Of a stretch of DNA of 64,000 nucleotides, positions 19,300 through 49,223 are shown one piece after another. The notes under the pieces are model-generated. The model did not search any database. It was not told the DNA's origin and was given only the letters and a program-made list of their open reading frames with translations. The DNA comes from Saprospira sp. CCB-QB6 (GTDB lineage: Bacteria; Bacteroidota; Bacteroidia; Chitinophagales; Saprospiraceae), in NCBI RefSeq assembly GCF_028464065.1, contig NZ_CP116808.1, positions 682,001-746,000 of the forward strand. The letters are read 5' to 3'. The position numbers and the translations under genes are program-made. Position 1 is the first letter of the stretch; every line of letters starts with the position of its first letter.

Positions 19300-19627
19300 G
19301 CGCTGTCGTGGCCACAGCCCTAAATCCACGCTCCGTTTTACTCTGTGGCAGCCACAGACCTAAATCCGCTCTCCGTTTCCGCTCTGTGGCGGCCACAGAC
19401 CTAAATCCACGCTCCGTTTTTACTCTGTGGCGACCACAGCCCTAAATCCACGCTCCGTTTTTACTCTGTGGCAGCCACAGCCCCAAATCCGCGCTCCATT
19501 TCTACTCTGTGGCAGCCACAGACCCAAATCCACGCTCCGTTTCTACTCTGTGGCAGCCACAGACCTAAATCCACGCTCCGTTTTTACTCTGTGGCAGCCA
19601 CAGCCCCAAATCCACGCTCCGTTTCCC
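19300..19627. repeat. minisatellite, eight 41-bp units each with a palindrome
   Basis: Eight units follow one another with a 41-bp period (one unit is 40). Each holds the odd palindrome CTGTGGCAGCCACAG, or variants with GTGGCGGCCAC or GTGGCGACCAC. Then comes A(C/G)C, C(T/C)AAATCC, a CGCTCCGTTT tail and a pyrimidine-rich joint. The repeated C(T/C)AAAT core sits at 19320, 19360, 19401, 19442, 19483, 19524, 19565 and 19606. Because 41 is not a multiple of three, the array cannot encode a repeated protein in one frame. Confidence 0.93.
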
Positions 19628-37117: not shown

Positions 37118-40100
37118 TTATGGTTTTTGTAGCTTTTGGCCCAAGAGCTGGCCCTTGGGTGTTTGTAATTGTAGGAAATAAAGTCCAGAAGGCCAATCAG
37201 CTGGAAGCTGAACTTGTGTATTCGAGAAACCTTCGGGAAGATTCAATCCACGATCAAGCAATAAGCGGCCCGCAAAATCAAAAATTTGCAAGCGGGCTTC
37301 AGGCACAGCCATTGGCAATTCCAACTCTAAATTTAGAATCTCTTGAAGCGGATTTGGATAAATCCGATACTGTCCTTCAGTCAACGCAATAGGATTTGTA
37401 GCTGTTGGCTGATTACTCACGTCAATTAGAATAGAGCCAGAAACCCCAGACATATCTTGAGCTGTAGCCACCACTAATACTTGACCATTTCCTCTAGCAG
37501 TAAGGACTCCAGATTGATCAATCGTGCCCACAGAAGTATTAGAAACGGACCAACTCACATTAGGGTTATCTGCATTGGCTGGAGAAACTACTGCAAACAG
37601 TTGCAAGGTCCCATTGGGCAAGTTAATTTCTGTGTTTCCACCTGCAGAAAGCACTTGAATTGAAGAGACCAGAATCTGGCCCTGTCCCCCTTGGTTACTA
37701 ATCGTAATCTGTTTGCTACCCGATACGCCAGAGCCATCGGTAGCCGTTGCAGTTACCGTCACAACGCCGTTAGTAAGTGCTTGTAGCACACCCGTAGCGT
37801 TAATGCTTGCGATACTGCTATTTGATACCGACCAGTTTACATTTTGGTTATTGGCACTAGTGGGCAGCACCGTAGCAATCATTTGCAAACTCCCTGCATT
37901 GCTTGTAATATGGTCAATTCCCGACTGAGAATTCACCAAAATGCTTTGCACCATTACCGATTGGTTATTGATCACAATAACTGTAGAACCAAAGACATTT
38001 GATCCATCAGTAGCTGTGGCTGTTACAGTCACCAAACCATTACTTACTGCTGTCAATAAACCAGTATTAGGATCAATCGTCGCTATTGTAGGATCATTTA
38101 CAGACCAAACTACGGTTGGGTTAGAGGCATTAGTAGGCGTTACCGTAGCAATCATTTGCAAATTGCCATTCAGTGTCGTGATCGAAGATTGGCCCCCTTG
38201 TCCCTGCACGCTAATTCCGCTAACATAGATAGGATCTACGGTTATCACAATACAATCAGAAACGCCAGAACCATCAGTAGCCGTTGCACAAACCTCTACC
38301 GTACCAGGATTACCTGCCATCAGCATCCCTGTACTTGGGTTAATCGTGGCTGAGCCCGTTTGGTTATTGACCGTCCAGCTAACTGAAGGATTTGAAGCAT
38401 TAGTAGGCGTTACTGTAGCCAACATCTGTAGGCTAGCATTGGCAGGTACTGTAGTTGCTCCCCCTTGGCCTTGCACACTAATCGTACTGACCAAAATAGG
38501 ATCTACTGTAATAATGATACAATCTGATATACCAGATCCATCATTGGCTGTAGCACAAACCTCTACTGTACCAGGACTACCAGCAGTAAGCACCCCTGTA
38601 CTAGGGTTAATCGTAGCAGAGCCCGTTTGGTTATTCACCGACCAAGTCACGCTATTATCGGTTGCATTAGCAGGAGTAATTGTAGCCAACATTTGTAGGC
38701 TAGCGTTAGCGGGAACTGTAGTTGCTCCACCTTGGCCCTGTACGCTAATCGCACTGACCAAAACAGCATTGATCGTGATAATTGTACAACCCACAACTCC
38801 AGAACCATCATTGGCTGTAGCACAAACCTCTACCGTACCAGGACTACCAGCCATCAATTGCCCAGTATTCGCGTTAATTGTAGCAGAACCTGTCTGGTTA
38901 TTCACCGACCAAGTCACAGTAGGATTAGTTGCATTAGCAGGAGTTACCGTAGCCTGCATCTGCAAACTAGCCCCTGAGTTGATACTAGCCGTTCCTCCTT
39001 GGCCCTGTACACTAATTGCTGTAACAGGAATAAAGACATTGCTAATCGTAATAATAATACAATCTGAAACGCCAGAACCATCCGTAGCCGTAGCACAAAC
39101 CTCTACCGTGCCTGCAGAAGTAGGACTAAGCACCCCTGAGGCACTAATCGTTGCAGAGCCCGTCTGATTATTGACCGACCAAGTGACAGTAGGATTAGAG
39201 GCATTGGCAGGACTAACTGTAGCCAACATCTGTAAAGTAGAAGAGCTAGCCACTGTAGTTGCTCCACCTTGACCTTGTACCGTAATACTAGACACCAAAA
39301 TAGGATCAATCGTAATGATGATACAATCTGATATACCAGAGCCATCCGTAGCCGTAGCACAAACTTCCACGGTACCAGGATTGCCCGCTGTTAAAACTCC
39401 TGTACTTGAGTTTACCGTCGCTGTTCCTGTTTGGTTATTCACCGACCAAGTCACACTATTATTAGAGGCATTCGCAGGAGCTACGGTAGCCAACATCTGC
39501 AAACTAGAAGAGGATTGAACAGTTGTTGCTCCCCCTTGACCCTGTACTGTAATACTAGACACTAAAATAGGATCAATCGTAATGATGATACAATCTGAAA
39601 CTCCAGATCCATCATTGGCTGTAGCACAAACTTCCACGGTACCAGGATTGCCCGCTGTCAAAACTCCTGTACTTGAGTTTATCGTTGCTGTTCCTGTTTG
39701 GTTATTCACCGACCAAGTCACACTATTATTAGAGGCATTCGCAGGAGCTACTGTAGCTAACATCTGCAATGTAGAAGAGGATTGAACAGTTGTTGCTCCC
39801 CCTTGACCTTGTACCGTAATACTCGATACCAATACAATATTGGTAGTGACCGTAATAGTAGTACAATCTGAAACGCCAGAACCATCGGTAGCTGTAGCAC
39901 AAACCTCCACAGTACCAGGGTTGCCCCCAGTCAGAACACCTGAGCTACTGATGGTCGCTGTTCCTGTTTGATTGCTTACAGTCCAAGTTACATTTGGATT
40001 AGAGGCATTCGCAGGACTAATAATCGCCTGCATTTGTAGAGTCGAAGAAGAAAGTACAGCCGTAGCTCCCCCTTGACCTTGTACCGTAATACCAAATACC

Positions 40101-43100
40101 AAAATGGGATCAATCGTGATTATTATACAATCCGATACACCAGAGCCATCATTAGCCACAGCACAAACTTCGACGGTACCAGGATTGCCCGCTGTCAAAA
40201 CTCCTGTACTTGAGTTTATCGTCGCTGTGCCTGTCTGATTATTCACCGACCAAGTCACGCTATTATTAGAAGCATTGACAGGACTAACCGTCGCCAACAT
40301 CTGTAATGTGGTAGAGGATTGAACAGTTGTCGCTCCGCCTTGACCTTGTACCGTAATACCAGATACCAAAATCGGATCAATTGTGATTGTAATACAATCC
40401 GATACGCCTGAGCCATCATTAGCTGTGGCACAAACTTGTACCGTCCCAGGATTACCTGCCGTCAAAACACCAGAACTGTTAATGGTTGCGGTTCCTGTTC
40501 CATTCGTTACACTCCAACTTACAGAAGGATTCGACGCATTAGCGGGACTAATCATCGTCAACATTTGTAAGCTTGCATTAGCCTGTACATTAGTAAGACC
40601 GCCTTGGCCTTGTACCGTAATACTAGACACTAAAATTGGGTCAATCGTGATTGTAATACAATCCGATACGCCTGAGCCATCATTAGCGGTGGCACAAACT
40701 TGTACCGTCCCAGGATTACCAGCTGTCAAAACACCAGAACTATTAATGGTTGCAGTTCCTGTTCCATTCGTTACACTCCAACTTACAGAAGGATTCGACG
40801 CATTAGCAGGACTAATCGTAGCCAACATTTGTAAGCTTGCATTAGCCTGTACATTAGTAACACCGCCCTGGCCTTGTACCGTAATACTAGACACTAAAAT
40901 CGGATCAATCGTAATCGTTATACAATCCGATACGCCTGAGCCATCATTAGCTGTAGCACAAACTTCTACCGTTCCTGGATTACCAGCGGTCAAGACCCCT
41001 GTACTAGAGTTAATCGTCGCTGTTCCTGTTTGGTTATTCACAGCCCAACTCACAGATGGATTCGAGGCATTAGCGGGACTGACTGTCGCTAACATTTGTA
41101 AACTAGTCGAAGACTGCACAGTTGTCGCTCCGCCTTGGCCTTGCACCGTAATACTAGACACTAAAATCGGATCAATCGTAATAATAGTACAGCCTGACAC
41201 TCCAGAACCATCCGTAGCCGTAGCACAGATCTCTACCGTTCCCTCTGTATTAGTAGTCAATAAGCCAGTAATAGGATCAATGCTAGCCGTCCCCGTTTGA
41301 TTATTTACGGACCAACTTACTGTAGTATTTGTTGCATTAGCCGGATTTACTGTCGCCAGCATTTGTAAGGTATTTCCTAAGGTTACATTAGCTTGTCCAG
41401 CTTGCCCCTGTACGGTAATACTACTAACAGCTACCACTGCAGTTAAAATCGTAATTGTTGTACAACCCGATACCCCAGAACCATCAGTAGCTGTAGCACA
41501 AACCTCTACCGTTCCTGCTGTAGTTGCTGAAAGCAAACCTGTATTCGGATCAATTGTGGCCGTCCCCGTCTGATTCGTTACCGACCAAACTACTGTCTGA
41601 TTAGAGGCATTAGCGGGACTGACTGTCGCTTCCATTTGCAAGCTAGATCCTGCCTGCACATTAGTCGCTCCACCTTGACCCTGTACACTAATACTACTCA
41701 CAAAGATTGTCGTTGTTGTAATATTGATGACGGTACAACCCGATACCCCAGAACCATCAGTAGCCGTAGCACAAACCTCTACCGTTCCTGCTGTAGTTGC
41801 CGAAAGCAAGCCTGTATTCGAATCAATTGTAGCCGTTCCAGTTTGATTATTTACGGACCAAACTACCGTCTGATTAGAAGCATTAGTTGGACTTACTGTA
41901 GCCACCATCTGAAGATTAGCTCCTGCCTGAATAGTAGTTGCGCCTCCTTGGCCCTGCACACTAATGCTTGACACTAAGATTGGGTCAATCGTAATCATTA
42001 CACAATCCGATGCCCCTGAGCCATCATTGGCCGTAGCACAAACTTGCACCGTACCTGGATTACCCCCTGTCAATACACCTGAACTATTGATAGTCGCTGT
42101 TCCCGTACCATTTGTTACCGTCCAAGTTACAGAAGGATTAGACGCATTGGTGGGACTGACCGTAGCCAACATCTGCAATGTAGAAGAGGATTGTACAATT
42201 GTCGCTCCGCCTTGGCCCTGCACGGTTATGCTTGACACCAATATAGGATCAATCGTAATCGTTACACAATCCGATACCCCTGAACCATCATTGGCCGTAG
42301 CACATACTTGTACCGTACCTGGATTACCCGCTGTTAAAACGCCAGAACTATTGATAGTCGCTGTTCCCGTACCATTCGTTACGGTCCAACTAACTGAGGG
42401 ATCAGAAGCATTGGCAGGACTGACCGTAGCCAACATCTGCAATGTAGAAGAGGATTGTACAGTTGTCGCTCCCCCTTGACCCTGCACGGTTATGCTTGAC
42501 ACCAATATAGGATCAATCGTAATCGTTACACAATCCGATACTCCAGAACCATCATTAGCCGTAGCACATACTTGTACCGTACCTGGATTACCCGCTGTTA
42601 AAACGCCAGAACTATTGATCGTGGCTGTTCCCGTACCATTCGTTACGGTCCAACTAACTGAGGGATTAGAAGCATTGGCGGGACTAACAGTGGCCAACAT
42701 CTGCAATGTAGAAGAGGATTGTACGCTCGTCGCTCCGCCTTGGCCCTGCACGCTTATGCTGGACACCAAAATGGGATCAATCGTAATCGTTACACAATCC
42801 GATACCCCTGAGCCATCATTAGCCGTAGCACATACTTGTACGGTTCCTGGGTTGCCTCCCGTCAATACACCTGAGCTATTGATCGTTGCGCTTCCCGTTC
42901 CATTTACGACAGACCAGCTGACTGTATTATTTGTCGCATTGGCTGGACTAACGGTGGCCAACATCTGCAATGTAGCAGAAGCTTGCACCGCTGTCGCTCC
43001 CCCTTGGCCCTGCACACTAATGCTAGACACCAAAATAGGATCAATCGTAATCGTTACACAATCCGATACCCCAGAACCATCATTGGCCGTAGCACAAACT

Positions 43101-46100
43101 TGCACCGTGCCAGGGTTGCCCCCTGTCAATACACCTGAACTATTAATGGTCGCTGTTCCCGTACCATTTGTTACCGTCCAACTTACAGAGGGATTAGAAG
43201 CATTGGCGGGACTAACCGTGGCCAACATCTGTAAGCTAGCAGAAGCTTGCACGCTTGTCGCTCCGCCTTGGCCCTGCACACTAATGCTAGACACCAATAT
43301 AGGATCAATCGTAATAGTCACGCAATCCGATACCCCAGAACCATCATTGGCCGTAGCACAAACTTGTACCGTTCCAGGATTACCCCCAGTCAATACTCCT
43401 GAACTATTGATGGTTGCTGTTCCCGTTCCATTTGTTACGGTCCAACTTACAGAAGGATTAGAAGCATTGGCGGGACTAACCGTGGCCAACATCTGCAAAC
43501 TAGCAGATGACTGCACAGCTGTTGCACCTCCTTGGCCCTGCACCGTTATGCTGGACACCAAAATGGGATCAATCGTAATCGTTACACAATCCGACACTCC
43601 TGAGCCATCATTGGCCGTGGCACAAACTTGCACCGTGCCAGGACTACCCGCAGTCAATACACCAGAACCGTTAATCGTCGCACTTCCCGTTCCATTTGTT
43701 ACGGTCCAACTGACCGATGGATTAGAAGCCGTCGCAGGACTGACCGTGGCCAACATCTGCAATGTAGCAGATGACTGCACCGCTGTCGCCCCCCCTTGGC
43801 CCTGCACCGTTATGCTTGACACCAAAATAGGATTGATCGTAATCGTCACACAGTCAGACACCCCTGAGCCATCATTGGCCGTAGCACATACTTGTACCGT
43901 TCCAGGGCTTCCCCCAGTCAATACACCAGAACTATTGATCGTCGCTGAGCCTGTGCCATTAACTACGGACCAGCTAACTGTATTATTTGTCGCATTGGCA
44001 GGACTAACCGTAGCCAACATCTGCAAGGTTGAGGAGGACTGTACTGTACCGACTCCCCCTTGGCCCTGCACAATAATGCTAGACACCAATATAGGATCTA
44101 CAGTAATCGTTACACAATCCGATACCCCTGAGCCATCATTGGCCATAGCACATACTTGCACCGTACCTGGGTTGCCCCCTGTCAATACACCTGAGCTGTT
44201 AATCGTTGCTGTTCCCGTCCCATTGACTACGGACCAACTGACCGTATTATTGGTCGCATTAGCTGGACTAACTGTAGCCAACATCTGCAAGCTAGAAGAA
44301 GATTGTACAACTGTCGCTCCAGCTTGGCCCTGCACACTAATGCTAGACACCAATATAGGATCAATCGTAATCGTCACACAATCCGATACCCCAGAACCAT
44401 CATTGGCCGTAGCACATACTTGCACCGTACCAGGATTCCCCCCAGACAATACACCTGAACTATTGATGGTCGCCGTTCCTGTGCCATTCGTTACAGTCCA
44501 ACTAACCGATGGATTAGAAGCCGTAGCAGGACTGACCGTGGCCAACATCTGCAAGCTAGCTGAAGCCTGCACGCTCGTCGCCCCAGCCTGCCCCTGCACA
44601 CTAATGCTAGACACCAAAATAGGGTCAATCGTAATCGTTACACAATCCGATACCCCTGAACCATCATTGGCCGTGGCACAAACCTGCACCGTTCCAGGAT
44701 TCCCCCCAGTTAATAGCCCAGAACTATTGATCGTCGCCGTTCCTGTTCCATTTACTACAGACCAACTAACCGATGGATTAGAAGCATTGGCTGGACTAAC
44801 CGTGGCCAACATCTGTAAACTAGCAGAAGCTTGCACATTTGTCTGCCCACTCTGCCCTTGCACCGTAATACTAGATACTAAAATAGGATCTACCGTAATT
44901 ACAGTACATCCCACTACACCCGAACCATCATTGGCCGTGGCACAAACTTCTACCGTTCCTGGGCTCCCTGCCGAAAGCAAACCCGTACTCGGATTTATTG
45001 TTGCTGAACCCGTCTGATTATTTACGGACCAGCTTACACCTGTATTGCTGGCATTAGTAGGACTGACTGTGGCCACCATCTGCAAGCTAGCAGCAGCCTG
45101 CACGCTTGTTGCTCCCCCTTGGCCCTGCACCGAAATGCTAGATACCATCAAAGGATCTACCGTAATATTGGCCGTGGCCGAATTACCAGAACCATCATTG
45201 GCCGTAGCCGTTACTTGCACCGTACCAGGATTCCCCCCAGTCAATACTCCCGAAGCGTTTATCGTGGCCGTTCCCGTCCCATTGATGACGCCCCAACTTA
45301 CTGTGGTATCCGTCGCATCTGTGGGTAAAACATAAGTAGTCATTTGTAGGGTTTGGGTAGACACCACAGCGCTCGCTCCGCCTTGGCCCCCAATCTGAAT
45401 ACTACTCACAGGCTTAAACTGCCCAGAAATGACAATATCCTTAAATCCCGATACCCCAGAACCATCATTGGCCGTAGCAAAAACTCGTACTGTACCATTG
45501 GTCACAGCCTGTAAAAGCCCCGTACTTGAGTTAATTGTTGCTATAGCGTTATTGTTGGTCGTCCAAGTTTTTGAAGTATCCGTGGCATTGGTAGGCGTGG
45601 TTGCCGCAAACATCTGAAGGCTGCCACTAGGCGTACTAATCGTATTTTGCCCGCCTTGTCCATAAACCACAATCTGATTGACCAAAACCTGCCCCGTTGC
45701 CCCAGCAATAATTGCCGTATTTGGGCTTTGCTCCCAACCAAAATCCTTAATGGTTACCGTATTGGCCGTAGTCGGTACATCTACTCGTACCCAGCCATAA
45801 TGCGTGGTCCCCGAATTCCGTACAAACCGAAAGCCCACATAAACATCACTAACTGGTGGGGCCGCCCAAGGATAAAGTGCCTGAATACAAGCCGAACAGA
45901 AAAAAGTAGAACCCGCAGTATAGGTCCCAGAACTCGGCCCAATCGAAGCACCAGCCGCCAATTTCTGAATGTTCGGCCCCGATAATTGCAGGGTCGCCGT
46001 CTGACTAACCCCCGCATTTAAAGCAGGCCGCGTAAAGGTAATAAATGTACTCCCACTCAAATTGACCGAGATGTTGATCTCATTGTCTCCATCCGATGTC

Positions 46101-46234
46101 AAATCAAAAGTCGCCGATTGCCCCACCGTCAAGGTCTGATCCGGAACATCCACATAGGCGATCTGCGCTTTTAGCCCCCAACTCAGGGACCATAGCAGGA
46201 AAAGTGTTAAAATGTATGCTATTTTTCTATGCAT
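37118..46234 (-). CDS. giant Ig-like (BIG2) repeat surface protein with T9SS sorting domain
   Basis: This 3038-residue protein starts with a signal peptide (ILTLFLLWSLSWGLKAQ). A beta-rich domain of about 190 residues with a CSAC pair follows, then about 31 tandem bacterial Ig-like repeats of roughly 88 residues (264 bp). A typical unit has ILVSSITVQGQGGAT, LQMLATVSPANAS, then VSWTVTNGTGTATINSSG and GNPGTVQVCATANDGSGVSD followed by Cys. In most central units two Cys lie 11 residues apart and could form a disulfide; both edge units lack them. The last 85 residues (YRIYPNPLQEILNLELELPM through GLYFLQLQTPKGQ) are a type A T9SS sorting domain. It is probably a surface or released adhesin; no enzymatic domain is seen. 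It is transcribed alone. Confidence 0.95.
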   Translation of the reverse strand: MHRKIAYILTLFLLWSLSWGLKAQIAYVDVPDQTLTVGQSATFDLTSDGDNEINISVNLSGSTFITFTRPALNAGVSQTATLQLSGPNIQKLAAGASIGPSSGTYTAGSTFFCSACIQALYPWAAPPVSDVYVGFRFVRNSGTTHYGWVRVDVPTTANTVTIKDFGWEQSPNTAIIAGATGQVLVNQIVVYGQGGQNTISTPSGSLQMFAATTPTNATDTSKTWTTNNNAIATINSSTGLLQAVTNGTVRVFATANDGSGVSGFKDIVISGQFKPVSSIQIGGQGGASAVVSTQTLQMTTYVLPTDATDTTVSWGVINGTGTATINASGVLTGGNPGTVQVTATANDGSGNSATANITVDPLMVSSISVQGQGGATSVQAAASLQMVATVSPTNASNTGVSWSVNNQTGSATINPSTGLLSAGSPGTVEVCATANDGSGVVGCTVITVDPILVSSITVQGQSGQTNVQASASLQMLATVSPANASNPSVSWSVVNGTGTATINSSGLLTGGNPGTVQVCATANDGSGVSDCVTITIDPILVSSISVQGQAGATSVQASASLQMLATVSPATASNPSVSWTVTNGTGTATINSSGVLSGGNPGTVQVCATANDGSGVSDCVTITIDPILVSSISVQGQAGATVVQSSSSLQMLATVSPANATNNTVSWSVVNGTGTATINSSGVLTGGNPGTVQVCAMANDGSGVSDCVTITVDPILVSSIIVQGQGGVGTVQSSSTLQMLATVSPANATNNTVSWSVVNGTGSATINSSGVLTGGSPGTVQVCATANDGSGVSDCVTITINPILVSSITVQGQGGATAVQSSATLQMLATVSPATASNPSVSWTVTNGTGSATINGSGVLTAGSPGTVQVCATANDGSGVSDCVTITIDPILVSSITVQGQGGATAVQSSASLQMLATVSPANASNPSVSWTVTNGTGTATINSSGVLTGGNPGTVQVCATANDGSGVSDCVTITIDPILVSSISVQGQGGATSVQASASLQMLATVSPANASNPSVSWTVTNGTGTATINSSGVLTGGNPGTVQVCATANDGSGVSDCVTITIDPILVSSISVQGQGGATAVQASATLQMLATVSPANATNNTVSWSVVNGTGSATINSSGVLTGGNPGTVQVCATANDGSGVSDCVTITIDPILVSSISVQGQGGATSVQSSSTLQMLATVSPANASNPSVSWTVTNGTGTATINSSGVLTAGNPGTVQVCATANDGSGVSDCVTITIDPILVSSITVQGQGGATTVQSSSTLQMLATVSPANASDPSVSWTVTNGTGTATINSSGVLTAGNPGTVQVCATANDGSGVSDCVTITIDPILVSSITVQGQGGATIVQSSSTLQMLATVSPTNASNPSVTWTVTNGTGTATINSSGVLTGGNPGTVQVCATANDGSGASDCVMITIDPILVSSISVQGQGGATTIQAGANLQMVATVSPTNASNQTVVWSVNNQTGTATIDSNTGLLSATTAGTVEVCATATDGSGVSGCTVINITTTTIFVSSISVQGQGGATNVQAGSSLQMEATVSPANASNQTVVWSVTNQTGTATIDPNTGLLSATTAGTVEVCATATDGSGVSGCTTITILTAVVAVSSITVQGQAGQANVTLGNTLQMLATVNPANATNTTVSWSVNNQTGTASIDPITGLLTTNTEGTVEICATATDGSGVSGCTIITIDPILVSSITVQGQGGATTVQSSTSLQMLATVSPANASNPSVSWAVNNQTGTATINSSTGVLTAGNPGTVEVCATANDGSGVSDCITITIDPILVSSITVQGQGGVTNVQANASLQMLATISPANASNPSVSWSVTNGTGTATINSSGVLTAGNPGTVQVCATANDGSGVSDCITITIDPILVSSITVQGQGGLTNVQANASLQMLTMISPANASNPSVSWSVTNGTGTATINSSGVLTAGNPGTVQVCATANDGSGVSDCITITIDPILVSGITVQGQGGATTVQSSTTLQMLATVSPVNASNNSVTWSVNNQTGTATINSSTGVLTAGNPGTVEVCAVANDGSGVSDCIIITIDPILVFGITVQGQGGATAVLSSSTLQMQAIISPANASNPNVTWTVSNQTGTATISSSGVLTGGNPGTVEVCATATDGSGVSDCTTITVTTNIVLVSSITVQGQGGATTVQSSSTLQMLATVAPANASNNSVTWSVNNQTGTATINSSTGVLTAGNPGTVEVCATANDGSGVSDCIIITIDPILVSSITVQGQGGATTVQSSSSLQMLATVAPANASNNSVTWSVNNQTGTATVNSSTGVLTAGNPGTVEVCATATDGSGISDCIIITIDPILVSSITVQGQGGATTVASSSTLQMLATVSPANASNPTVTWSVNNQTGSATISASGVLSPTSAGTVEVCATATDGSGVSDCIIITISNVFIPVTAISVQGQGGTASINSGASLQMQATVTPANATNPTVTWSVNNQTGSATINANTGQLMAGSPGTVEVCATANDGSGVVGCTIITINAVLVSAISVQGQGGATTVPANASLQMLATITPANATDNSVTWSVNNQTGSATINPSTGVLTAGSPGTVEVCATANDGSGISDCIIITVDPILVSTISVQGQGGATTVPANASLQMLATVTPTNASNPSVSWTVNNQTGSATINPSTGMLMAGNPGTVEVCATATDGSGVSDCIVITVDPIYVSGISVQGQGGQSSITTLNGNLQMIATVTPTNASNPTVVWSVNDPTIATIDPNTGLLTAVSNGLVTVTATATDGSNVFGSTVIVINNQSVMVQSILVNSQSGIDHITSNAGSLQMIATVLPTSANNQNVNWSVSNSSIASINATGVLQALTNGVVTVTATATDGSGVSGSKQITISNQGGQGQILVSSIQVLSAGGNTEINLPNGTLQLFAVVSPANADNPNVSWSVSNTSVGTIDQSGVLTARGNGQVLVVATAQDMSGVSGSILIDVSNQPTATNPIALTEGQYRIYPNPLQEILNLELELPMAVPEARLQIFDFAGRLLLDRGLNLPEGFSNTQVQLPADWPSGLYFLQLQTPKGQLLGQKLQKP
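37420..45690 (-). repeat. tandem 264-bp coding repeats (about 31 units)
   Basis: The DNA repeats with an approximate 264-bp period that matches the 88-residue protein unit. Central units (about 40400-44900) are the most alike, while units near both ends have diverged. This pattern is expected from unequal crossing-over or gene conversion acting on the middle of the array. Confidence 0.9.
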
Positions 46235-46650: not shown

Positions 46651-47262
46651 CTGTAGGTTGAAACCTACAGCAAGGGTGGTATTGCTTCGCAATGTTTTTA
46701 TGGAATGAGGGTTTTAACCCTCATTGATTTAAATCTTTTGGCCTTAGAACTGGCTGTTTTTATCTAGTTATAGGCTGAAGGTTTTAACCTTCGGCCCATT
46801 TTGTAGGTCCAGCATGGCCTCCCTTTTTGCTGTGGGTTTTAACCCACAGGACTATAGGATAGAAATTTTGCACCAAAGGACCAATACAGAAAATTCAGTC
46901 TAGACCTAGTTAATCAATAGAGCTAAACAAAAAGCCTCCTCGAAGGAGGGCGCGACTACTTGGTCTGGCCTGACGGCCACTGCTGCACATCGCTAGGCCT
47001 GCGGCCCTTCGGGCCTGCTACATGGGCCTGTAGGTTGAAACCTACAGCCAGACAACAAAAAATATCCTAGATCCATAGCGTGGAGGGTTAAAACCCTCCA
47101 CAGCTTTTAACGGCCCTCAGAATTGCTGCATTTATGATTTAGGCAGCCTAGAAGATGTTTGTTTATGCAGGGTTTTAACCCTGCATACTATGTTAAAATG
47201 TATTCGTTAATTGGCTGTAGGTTTCAACCTACAGCTATGGCCCTGCAGCCTTTAGGCTGCAG
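46651..47262. repeat. cluster of nine palindromes, most centred on GGTTNNAACC
   Basis: Palindromes lie at 46651-46670 (CTGTAGGTTGAAACCTACAG), 46704-46725 (arms AATGAGGG), 46776-46794 (GAAGG), 46830-46849 (CTGTGGGTTTTAACCCACAG), 47028-47047 (same as the first), 47080-47101 (GTGGAGGG), 47165-47186 (ATGCAGGG), 47215-47234 (CTGTAGGTTTCAACCTACAG) and 47243-47262 (CTGCAGCCTTTAGGCTGCAG). The outer arms differ but are always complementary. No gene is seen in this stretch. Confidence 0.9.
46961..46999 (+). repeat. partial subfamily B element (copy B6, 3' part only)
   Basis: Only the last third is present, from GGTCTGG through GGCCTGACGGCC to CACATCGCTAGGCC, matching copy B5 exactly over this part. 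It is embedded in the palindrome cluster. Confidence 0.8.
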
Positions 47263-47370
47263 GATTCTTGGCCCCAAAATACAAGGGGTTTCTATATTTT
47301 GTTTTTAAGCCAAGCTAGCTAAACTGCCGTAGGGTTGGTCCAGAAAAAAAGATAGGGCCTTAGACAGCTC

Positions 47371-47745
47371 CCCCTAGCTAAATGTATTGATGCAGACGCC
47401 TTGGGGGAATCCCCCTAGCTAAATGTATCAATGCAGATGCCTTGGGGGAATCCCCCTAGCTAAATGTATCGATGCAGACGCCTTGGGGGAATCCCCCTAG
47501 CTAAATGTATCGATGCAGACGCCTTGGGGGAATCCCCCTAGCTAAATGTATCGATGCAGACGCCTTGGGGGAATCCCCCTAGCTAAATGTACTGATGCAG
47601 ATGCCTTGGGGGAATCCCCCTAGCTAAATGTATCGATGCAGACGCCTTGGGGGAATTCCCCTAACTAAATGTAAGAATGCAGACGACTGTGGCGCAACGC
47701 CACAGCTAAATGTAAGAATACAGATGACTCTAGGGGGGGTCCAGT
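47371..47745. repeat. minisatellite, nine 41-bp units each with a palindrome
   Basis: The core CTAAAT recurs at exactly 41-bp steps (47378, 47419, 47460, 47501, 47542, 47583, 47624, 47665, 47706). Most units carry the odd palindrome GGGGGAATCCCCC, then TAG, CTAAATGTATCGATGCAGAC and GCCTT. The last junction replaces that palindrome with the longer CTGTGGCGCAACGCCACAG yet keeps the 41-bp period. This second palindrome resembles that of the array at 19300. Confidence 0.94.
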
Positions 47746-47793
47746 AGATAGGCGGCTGAAAACAGGCGTTTAAAGCAGGGCGAAAAGATGAGC

Positions 47794-47911
47794 GGCCTAG
47801 CGATGTGCAGCAGTGCGGCGCAGCCGCAGACCAAGGCCGTCAGGCCGCAGGGCCGAGCGAATAGCGAGCTGCGGAACGTAGCGCCGACGAGCGAAGCGAG
47901 GCGGAGGCCCC
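47794..47911 (-). repeat. dispersed hairpin element, subfamily B (copy B7)
   Basis: On the minus strand it runs GGGGCCT to AGGCC with GGCCTGACGGCC in the middle and GCGGCTGCGCCGC near the end. A module C copy lies directly 5' of it. Confidence 0.88.
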
Positions 47912-47928
47912 AAAACAGCAGCGAGCTG

Positions 47929-48052
47929 CGACAACAAGGACTTTAGTCCGCAGTTCGACGACCAACGGGAGTAAACGTAGCGCCGCAAGGCGAAGCCGCA
48001 GCGACAACAAGGACTTTAGTCCGCAGTTCGATGACTGAAAGGAGTAACGCCC
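47929..48052 (-). repeat. two copies of module C (about 50 bp each)
   Basis: Two units share GGACTAAAGTCC (a palindrome), the preceding TCGAACTGC and the following TTGTTGTCG (minus-strand reading), at about 47929-47975 and 48001-48052. Between them lies a piece resembling the start of a subfamily B element (GCGGCTTCGCCTTGCGGC then GCTACGTT). No gene is present; parB starts at 48141. Confidence 0.82.
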
Positions 48053-48140: not shown

Positions 48141-49223
48141 ATGGCAAAAAAGCTAAATAGAGGACAAGGGGTTGGGGCCCTTTTTTCGAAAATCAATCCC
48201 AATATTGAGGTGAATAAAGAGGAATTGGTTCGGGAATTATCGAACACGGTGGCGGATATTCCCTTAGATCAGATCAGTTTCAATCCGGACAATCCTCGTT
48301 TAGAGTTTGATGAGGAGGCCTTATTGCAGTTATCGGAATCGATTAAGAAGCATGGGCTCATTCAGCCGATAACGGTAAGGCATTTGGGGGAGAATCAGTT
48401 TCAGCTCATTTCTGGAGAGCGTCGATTACGGGCCTCTAAGCTGGCGGCTTTGGGGCAGGTGCCGGCCTACATTCGGGTGGCCAATGATGAGGCCATGTTA
48501 GAATTGGCTTTGATTGAGAACATTCAGCGGCAGGACTTGAATGCGATAGAGATTGCGAGTACCTATCAGCGGATGATGGATGAGTTGAAATTGACGGAAG
48601 AGCAATTATCTAAGCGGGTCAATAAGAAGCGGAGCACGGTGAGTAATTATGTGCGTTTGCTTCGTTTGCCGGGTCAGATTCAGAATGCTATTAAGGCGCG
48701 GCAGATATCTATGGGGCATGCGCGGGCCTTGGCGGGTTTGAATGAAGAGCAATTGCAGAGCATTTTGTTTGAGGCCTGCATGGAAGATAAGTTATCAGTG
48801 CGCAAGGTAGAGCAATACAGCAAGCTTTTGCAAAAGGGCAATTCATTGGACAAAGCCATAATGGGTTTGAAATCGGGTATGATTGCTTTGGGGCATTTGG
48901 CGGAGCTCAGTCGGTTGGAGAAATTGGACGAGCAACTTTATTTGTATAAAGAAATCATTCGTTCCAACTGGTCGGTAGAAGAGACACGTCTTTGGCTCAA
49001 CAAGCAATTGGCGAAAAAGGAGCAGGAAGAGGAAGGGCCCAAGGAGGAGAAGAAAAAAACCTTATCGCCTGCTTATCAGAATTTGCAAGATCGGTTAAAA
49101 TCTCAGTTGGGGGCCAAGGTGCAGCTCAAGGCCAATGAAAAGGGCAAGGGGCAGATCATTATCAACTTTATGGATCCCGATGATTTGGAGCGCATTTTAG
49201 AGCAACTCAACTATGAAGCTTAA
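48141..49223 (+). CDS. parB: ParB/Spo0J-family chromosome partition protein
   Basis: The 360-residue protein shows RGQGVGALF at the N-terminus (the region where ParB meets ParA), the ParB core IPLDQISFNPDNPR... and the CTP-binding box GERRLRAS (residues 92-99). ENIQRQDLNAIEIASTYQRM and a helix-turn-helix (LTEEQLSKRVNKKRSTVSNY, about 145-170) recognise parS in this family. A C-terminal dimerisation segment ends in IIINFMDPDDLERILEQLNY. The role is CTP-dependent sliding-clamp loading at parS and chromosome segregation. No parA is adjacent and no parS-like dyad was noticed in the window. It overlaps the next gene by 11 bp. Confidence 0.95.
   Translation: MAKKLNRGQGVGALFSKINPNIEVNKEELVRELSNTVADIPLDQISFNPDNPRLEFDEEALLQLSESIKKHGLIQPITVRHLGENQFQLISGERRLRASKLAALGQVPAYIRVANDEAMLELALIENIQRQDLNAIEIASTYQRMMDELKLTEEQLSKRVNKKRSTVSNYVRLLRLPGQIQNAIKARQISMGHARALAGLNEEQLQSILFEACMEDKLSVRKVEQYSKLLQKGNSLDKAIMGLKSGMIALGHLAELSRLEKLDEQLYLYKEIIRSNWSVEETRLWLNKQLAKKEQEEEGPKEEKKKTLSPAYQNLQDRLKSQLGAKVQLKANEKGKGQIIINFMDPDDLERILEQLNYEA

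Follow-up and report, generated by a model that had tools for sequence, protein, structure and literature searches.

A 41-bp tandem array in Saprospira and its place in a set of extragenic repeats of preferred size and variable sequence

BOX elements of streptococci are intergenic, dispersed elements built from a 5' module, a tandem hairpin module of variable number and a 3' module, and their sequence is kept. Bacterial tandem repeats of constant size and variable sequence have been described by Subirana and Messeguer (PMC8161180), whose article, at least in its main text, presents non-coding repeats with several families per genome and one length, reports no sizes other than 20-21 or 52 nt, and proposes either a DNA-polymerising protein or small RNAs. 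Saprospira is absent from the main text of that article, and no published Saprospira case of such repeats was among the literature matches listed. Why some bacteria retain tandem repeats that keep the same size while their sequence changes is an open question, and one that the Saprospira arrays described here make testable. The array from which we started lies in a window of 64,000 nucleotides (G000:C1:682001-746000) of a 4.24-Mb Saprospira genome; positions without a locus or contig name refer to this window.

The main array and its surroundings

The original prediction for this window was of nine CTAAAT cores at an exact spacing of 41 bp, and this is borne out both by the core positions (47378, 47419, 47460, 47501, 47542, 47583, 47624, 47665 and 47706, so that all eight steps are of exactly 41 bp) and by TRF, which independently reports a period of 41, 8.4 copies and 0% indels. 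Two CTAAAT cores separated by 35 nt occur ten times in the window, eight times in this array and twice in another, whereas dinucleotide shuffles contain 0.01 on average. The array (47378-47746, forward strand) has nine units, each consisting of a 22-nt linker of the CTAAATGTANNRATRCAGAYG type and a 19-nt hairpin slot. That slot contains GGGGGAATCCCCC in units 1-6, GGGGGAATTCCCC in unit 7 and CTGTGGCGCAACGCCACAG in unit 8, and is degenerate in unit 9. Thus the predicted exchange of one palindrome for another at an unaltered period is indeed found, but the count of eight units plus a different last one is wrong, since six units are exact, the seventh is a variant, the eighth carries the other palindrome and the ninth is degenerate. 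The GGGGG-type palindrome (CTTGGGGGAATCCCCCTAG, with one T-T mismatch) occupies the same 19-nt slot as the other type, and both types are therefore built alike, from a linker of 22 nt and a hairpin slot of 19 nt. As the entire 41-bp unit repeats and there are no spacers, we rejected the identification of the array as a CRISPR.

Directly 5' of the array lies a conserved leader of ~100 bp (47278-47377, forward strand), delimited by an alignment of 19 leaders and matched by our R2 leader model at G000:C1:729279-729374 with an E value of 2.1e-19. On the 3' side is a dispersed repeat of the GCGGCCTAGCGATG... family (47747-47930, forward strand, end approximate), which also trails other arrays and shows collinear homology downstream of the array with up to 14 other loci in the same genome. 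A second 41-bp array, defined by TRF and by core spacing, is found at 19311-19625 on the forward strand; its linker is of type B (CTAAATCCRC..CTCTGTGGCNGCCACAGNC), it includes one step of 40 bp, and the R2 leader model has no match at it. Both this second array and the leader of the main array had been overlooked in the original prediction.

The second array lies 5' of a gene for a sigma-54-type response regulator. The main array adjoins a gene on the reverse strand (37118-46234) for a protein of 3038 aa that carries 31 Big_2 (bacterial Ig-like) stretches and, at its C-terminus, a Por secretion sorting domain. Dispersed hairpins of the form GGGTTTTAACCC / GGTTTCAACC are dense at 46800-47280. 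On its other side, a ParB gene (48141-49223, forward strand; Pfam ParB_N, HTH_ParB and ParB_C) starts 394 bp 3' of the array. Given that ParB is absent beside the other arrays in the open-frame listing, this adjacency is probably due to chance. Nine array-adjacent proteins were scanned against Pfam, yielding ParB and the Big_2 repeat protein at the main array, the sigma-54 response regulator at the second, and FtsX-type, hydrolase, polyphosphate kinase, acyltransferase, type I specificity and PKD proteins among the neighbours of other loci; no shared neighbour gene appeared among these nine proteins or in the open-frame listing around the arrays. The ToxN-type toxin of type III toxin-antitoxin systems (PF13958) was found in 0 of 20 genomes, in a search whose control was likewise silent, and the nine neighbour proteins match other Pfam families. 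Searches of a plasmid collection and of viral contigs gave no match.

Distribution, leader and unit size

The leader model matches 35 sites in this genome and 14, 14 and 10 in the S. grandis genomes G002, G005 (WHT) and G001, a total of 73, of which 58 were inspected for arrays. It has zero matches in the two remaining genomes of the genus, both of them more distant (one gene gives 57-60% protein identity, versus 92-93%). Among loci with cores of type A or the related type C, 19 of 22 have a leader, the leader-free loci (L044, L050 and L060) being those omitted from the leader alignment. Where loci were fetched by their leader (40, of which L124 is the L063 locus again), a 41-bp array follows in 32, a 42-bp array in three and no TRF array in five; leader-preceded arrays have several distinct unit sequences, mostly of 41 bp. 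At L108 (2265-2860) two leaders in inverted orientation face each other across one array (G000:C1 280765+ and 281266-).

Searching with the core instead, CTAAAT pairs 41 bp apart occur 120 times in this genome; a backward-pattern control gave 28, a count tainted by type B, which contains TAAATC. Three successive cores were found in 4 of the 40 genomes searched, all of them Saprospira (four of the six in the genus), and the unit model, under the stricter filters of a large search, matched one of 198 genomes of the order, namely this one.

How constant is the unit size? Core-to-core steps in 27 fetched arrays are 41 bp in 248 of 254 cases, 40 in three and 42 in three, although these arrays were mostly picked by their period. 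A period-blind census sampled 20-kb stretches at even intervals, 60 in this genome (1.2 Mb) and 40 in S. grandis WHT (0.8 Mb), and counted extragenic arrays that had four copies or more and matched at 70% or better, the smaller period being chosen among overlapping TRF rows if it had at least 0.7 of the score. Of the 25 arrays in the two genomes, 23 have units close to two helical turns (21 bp), four (41 or 42 bp) or eight (83 bp). In this genome all 11 arrays are of 41, 42 or 83 bp, one of them being the second array of the window; in WHT 12 of 14 are of 21 or 42 bp, and the remaining two are of 11 and 22 bp. The 83-bp units are alternating steps of 42 and 41. Arrays dropped before this count had fewer than four copies (including 208, 210, 130 and 103 bp, though 41 and 42 bp are represented as well), less than 70% match (including 22 bp at 58%), or at least 120 open codons outside the array, which were deemed coding. 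Also excluded was L224 of WHT, a CRISPR stretch. The idea in the original prediction that the spacing is constrained thus largely withstands its own refuting condition, namely other arrays in the genome with clearly different periods, with exceptions at 11, 22, 81 and 208/210 bp.

The weaker off-size arrays of this genome are those of 208 bp (3.9 copies) and 210 bp (3.6 copies), and the 22-bp array of low match; arrays of 130 bp exist too (weaker or targeted). Another departure from the 41-42 size, in a targeted region (L056, 8256-9368), is an 81-bp repeat of 13.7 copies whose unit is composed of two dispersed palindromes. In S. grandis WHT, the 103-bp repeat at L240 2778-3059 is three tandem tRNA-Glu (ttc) genes, and L224 7817-19797 is a long CRISPR-like array with the repeat GTTTCAATGCTGCTTCGCCTGCAATGGGTTTAGTAT and differing spacers.

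The common size is observed despite dissimilar sequences. Sequence clustering at a cut-off of 26, for which the shuffled maximum is 21, gave 12 clusters, ten of them with sizes of 21, 41, 42 or 83; one cluster (L205) shows the 22+19 layout again in a different sequence. Tested for phase against uniform sizes, the unit sizes are far beyond chance in a test that leans on the abundant 41/42 values and assumes independent clusters. The most permissive single linkage leaves seven clusters. At a permissive cut-off, 21 of 33 consensus units (the 25 census arrays and eight added) chain into one, so many of the 41-bp types may descend from a single unit. A coding origin of the 21- and 42-bp arrays was rejected, there being no consistent excess of third-position substitutions, on counts that are small for several arrays.

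Unit turnover and what may hold the length

Our best explanation, to which we assign a probability of about 0.4, is that the main array is one locus of a large extragenic satellite set whose unit size is held at around four helical turns and whose sequence can change, probably for a putative protein. The constraint would act on the DNA itself, judging from unit sizes that track the helical repeat and hairpin mismatches that show no strand preference. A putative nucleoid-type protein might assemble along the array and require all its contact points to lie on the same side of the helix, while recombination between copies would keep arrays alike within a genome. The preferred sizes would then represent about four turns (41-42 bp), half of this (21) and double (83). 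Phasing as the only rule would not predict that units of three, five or six turns are missing, and we count this against the explanation.

A rather doubtful alternative is that there is no selection on spacing at all: the arrays would go back to an ancestral unit of ~41 bp that spread, its length kept by unequal crossing-over in register and by gene conversion, which purge units of other lengths. Concerted evolution is plain in type A, where GATCCAG is found in 74/74 units of the S. grandis loci and in 0/119 here (84 GATGCAG, 24 GATACAG, 10 AATGCAG and 1 GATACGG), despite the type A sites being orthologous between S. grandis and this genome. Array copy number varies among strains (for example 12, 9, 10 and 16 units). 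Types C, E and F are also mutually alike above shuffles (24-28/41 versus about 16.4-17.0), which we count in favour of this account.

This account sits less well with the units found at certain orthologous sites. With both flanks matched (84-97%), L115 of this genome (type D) corresponds to L134 of WHT (type E), both of 41 bp, yet the D and E units agree at only 17/41 positions in the best register, which is chance level (shuffled mean 16.1). With both flanks likewise matched, L111 (type C) corresponds to L141 (type E), both of 41 bp and partly alike (24/41 versus 16.4 shuffled); L121 (type C, 41 bp) to L140 (42/83-bp units), where the sizes differ by a one-base step; and L114 (~two D units) to L129 and L130 (type E). 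One flank matches between L116 (type D) and L135 (type F), whose units agree at 19/41 versus 16.3. Autocorrelation gives 41 bp for L115, L134, L111, L141, L121, L116, L135 and L130, and 83/42 for L140. Thus different units of the same length are observed at orthologous sites, in one well-flanked pair (L115/L134) and one half-flanked pair (L116/L135), and clean unit replacement rests on the single full pair with both flanks, L115/L134. The recurrence of 21, 42 and 83 bp in clusters that do not align with one another also speaks against homogenisation alone.

Fewer length changes are observed in the arrays than in their flanks. Relative to substitutions, there are 14/1526 in the arrays (493 adjacent pairs) and 14/378 in the non-coding flanks (6,948 aligned positions), so that they are approximately fourfold rarer in arrays (odds ratio 4.0, Fisher p 0.0004), on counts that are not independent, since the same strains recur among the flank pairs and homogenisation both multiplies changes and conceals them. 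The comparison of adjacent units scores one change many times, and homogenisation masks indels.

Our preferred reading, of a DNA length held for a putative protein, has a stronger form that we consider rather unlikely, in which a protein specific to the taxon would polymerise on DNA in Saprospira, sensing helical distance and not sequence, and would maintain dozens of arrays as assembly platforms of four-turn units whose sequence drifts freely. If this were true, the arrays would be a bacterial counterpart of length-conserved centromeric satellites. Predicted intrinsic curvature shows no general rise over shuffles, the exception being L205, which lies above all 200.

It is improbable, in our view, that the arrays function as RNA, transcribed into non-coding chains of hairpins that serve as a sponge or are processed to RNAs of ~41 nt. 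Compensatory changes, which also count in favour of our preferred reading, are observed in the type A hairpin, as this explanation would expect: 90.3% of cells are paired, and covariation, in 22 type A units chosen out of 127 distinct ones, is 0.348 versus 0.141 ± 0.029, a value that 0/500 shuffles reach. The leader is upstream and in fixed orientation, and constant-size repeats are reported to be transcribed in Bacillus coagulans (PMC8625621). However, wobble pairs show no strand bias. An excess of T-G over C-A in type A only, which we had considered as proof of RNA, was inflated by a biased score and is gone under symmetric scoring, where G-T and A-C mismatches in distinct hairpins number 25 versus 29 and 28 versus 20, so that neither strand is favoured. 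The leaders have no conserved fold, RNAalifold returning only two pairs on their alignment. Nor does the leader appear to be a promoter, a candidate we rejected: the -33/-7 Bacteroidota-type promoter occurs in 0/58 leaders and 1/58 control stretches, and the -7 element alone in 1/58 leaders forward, 8/58 in reverse and 2/58 control stretches. Nothing within the window matched Rfam at gathering scores, and an RNA function does not account for units of 2, 4 and 8 helical turns.

Finally, a mutational ruler, in which duplication machinery copies whole helical turns so that size is fixed at birth and has no function, would account for equal size with unlike sequences and for 21, 42 and 83 as successive doublings, but we think it improbable too, as it leaves both the covarying hairpins and the scarcity of length changes relative to the flanks unexplained.

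Comparison with known systems

Saprospira offers particular advantages for asking why such repeats are retained: four genomes can be compared per locus, unlike units of the same length lie at orthologous sites, a leader is common to the loci, and units of 2, 4 and 8 turns occur.

The REP and BIME elements associated with RAYT transposases resemble the Saprospira arrays in having palindromic units in intergenic arrays, and differ in that the Saprospira units are direct repeats of 41-42 bp whose palindromes change. With BOX elements the Saprospira arrays may share a modular build: a 5' leader is common to the loci, and 3' tails are common only within subsets of loci; unlike BOX, the repeat sequence varies by locus and species at a fixed length. 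Closest are the constant-size repeats presented in the main text of PMC8161180, which the Saprospira arrays match in being non-coding and in comprising several families of a single length and differing sequences. They differ from these in their sizes of 41-42 bp (also 21 and 83), their common leader, their covarying hairpins and the unlike units at orthologous sites. Since the main size is 41-42 and not 20-21 or 52, although 21 nt occurs in WHT, we regard the Saprospira arrays as a size variant of the repeats described there, rather than as a plain member of that class.
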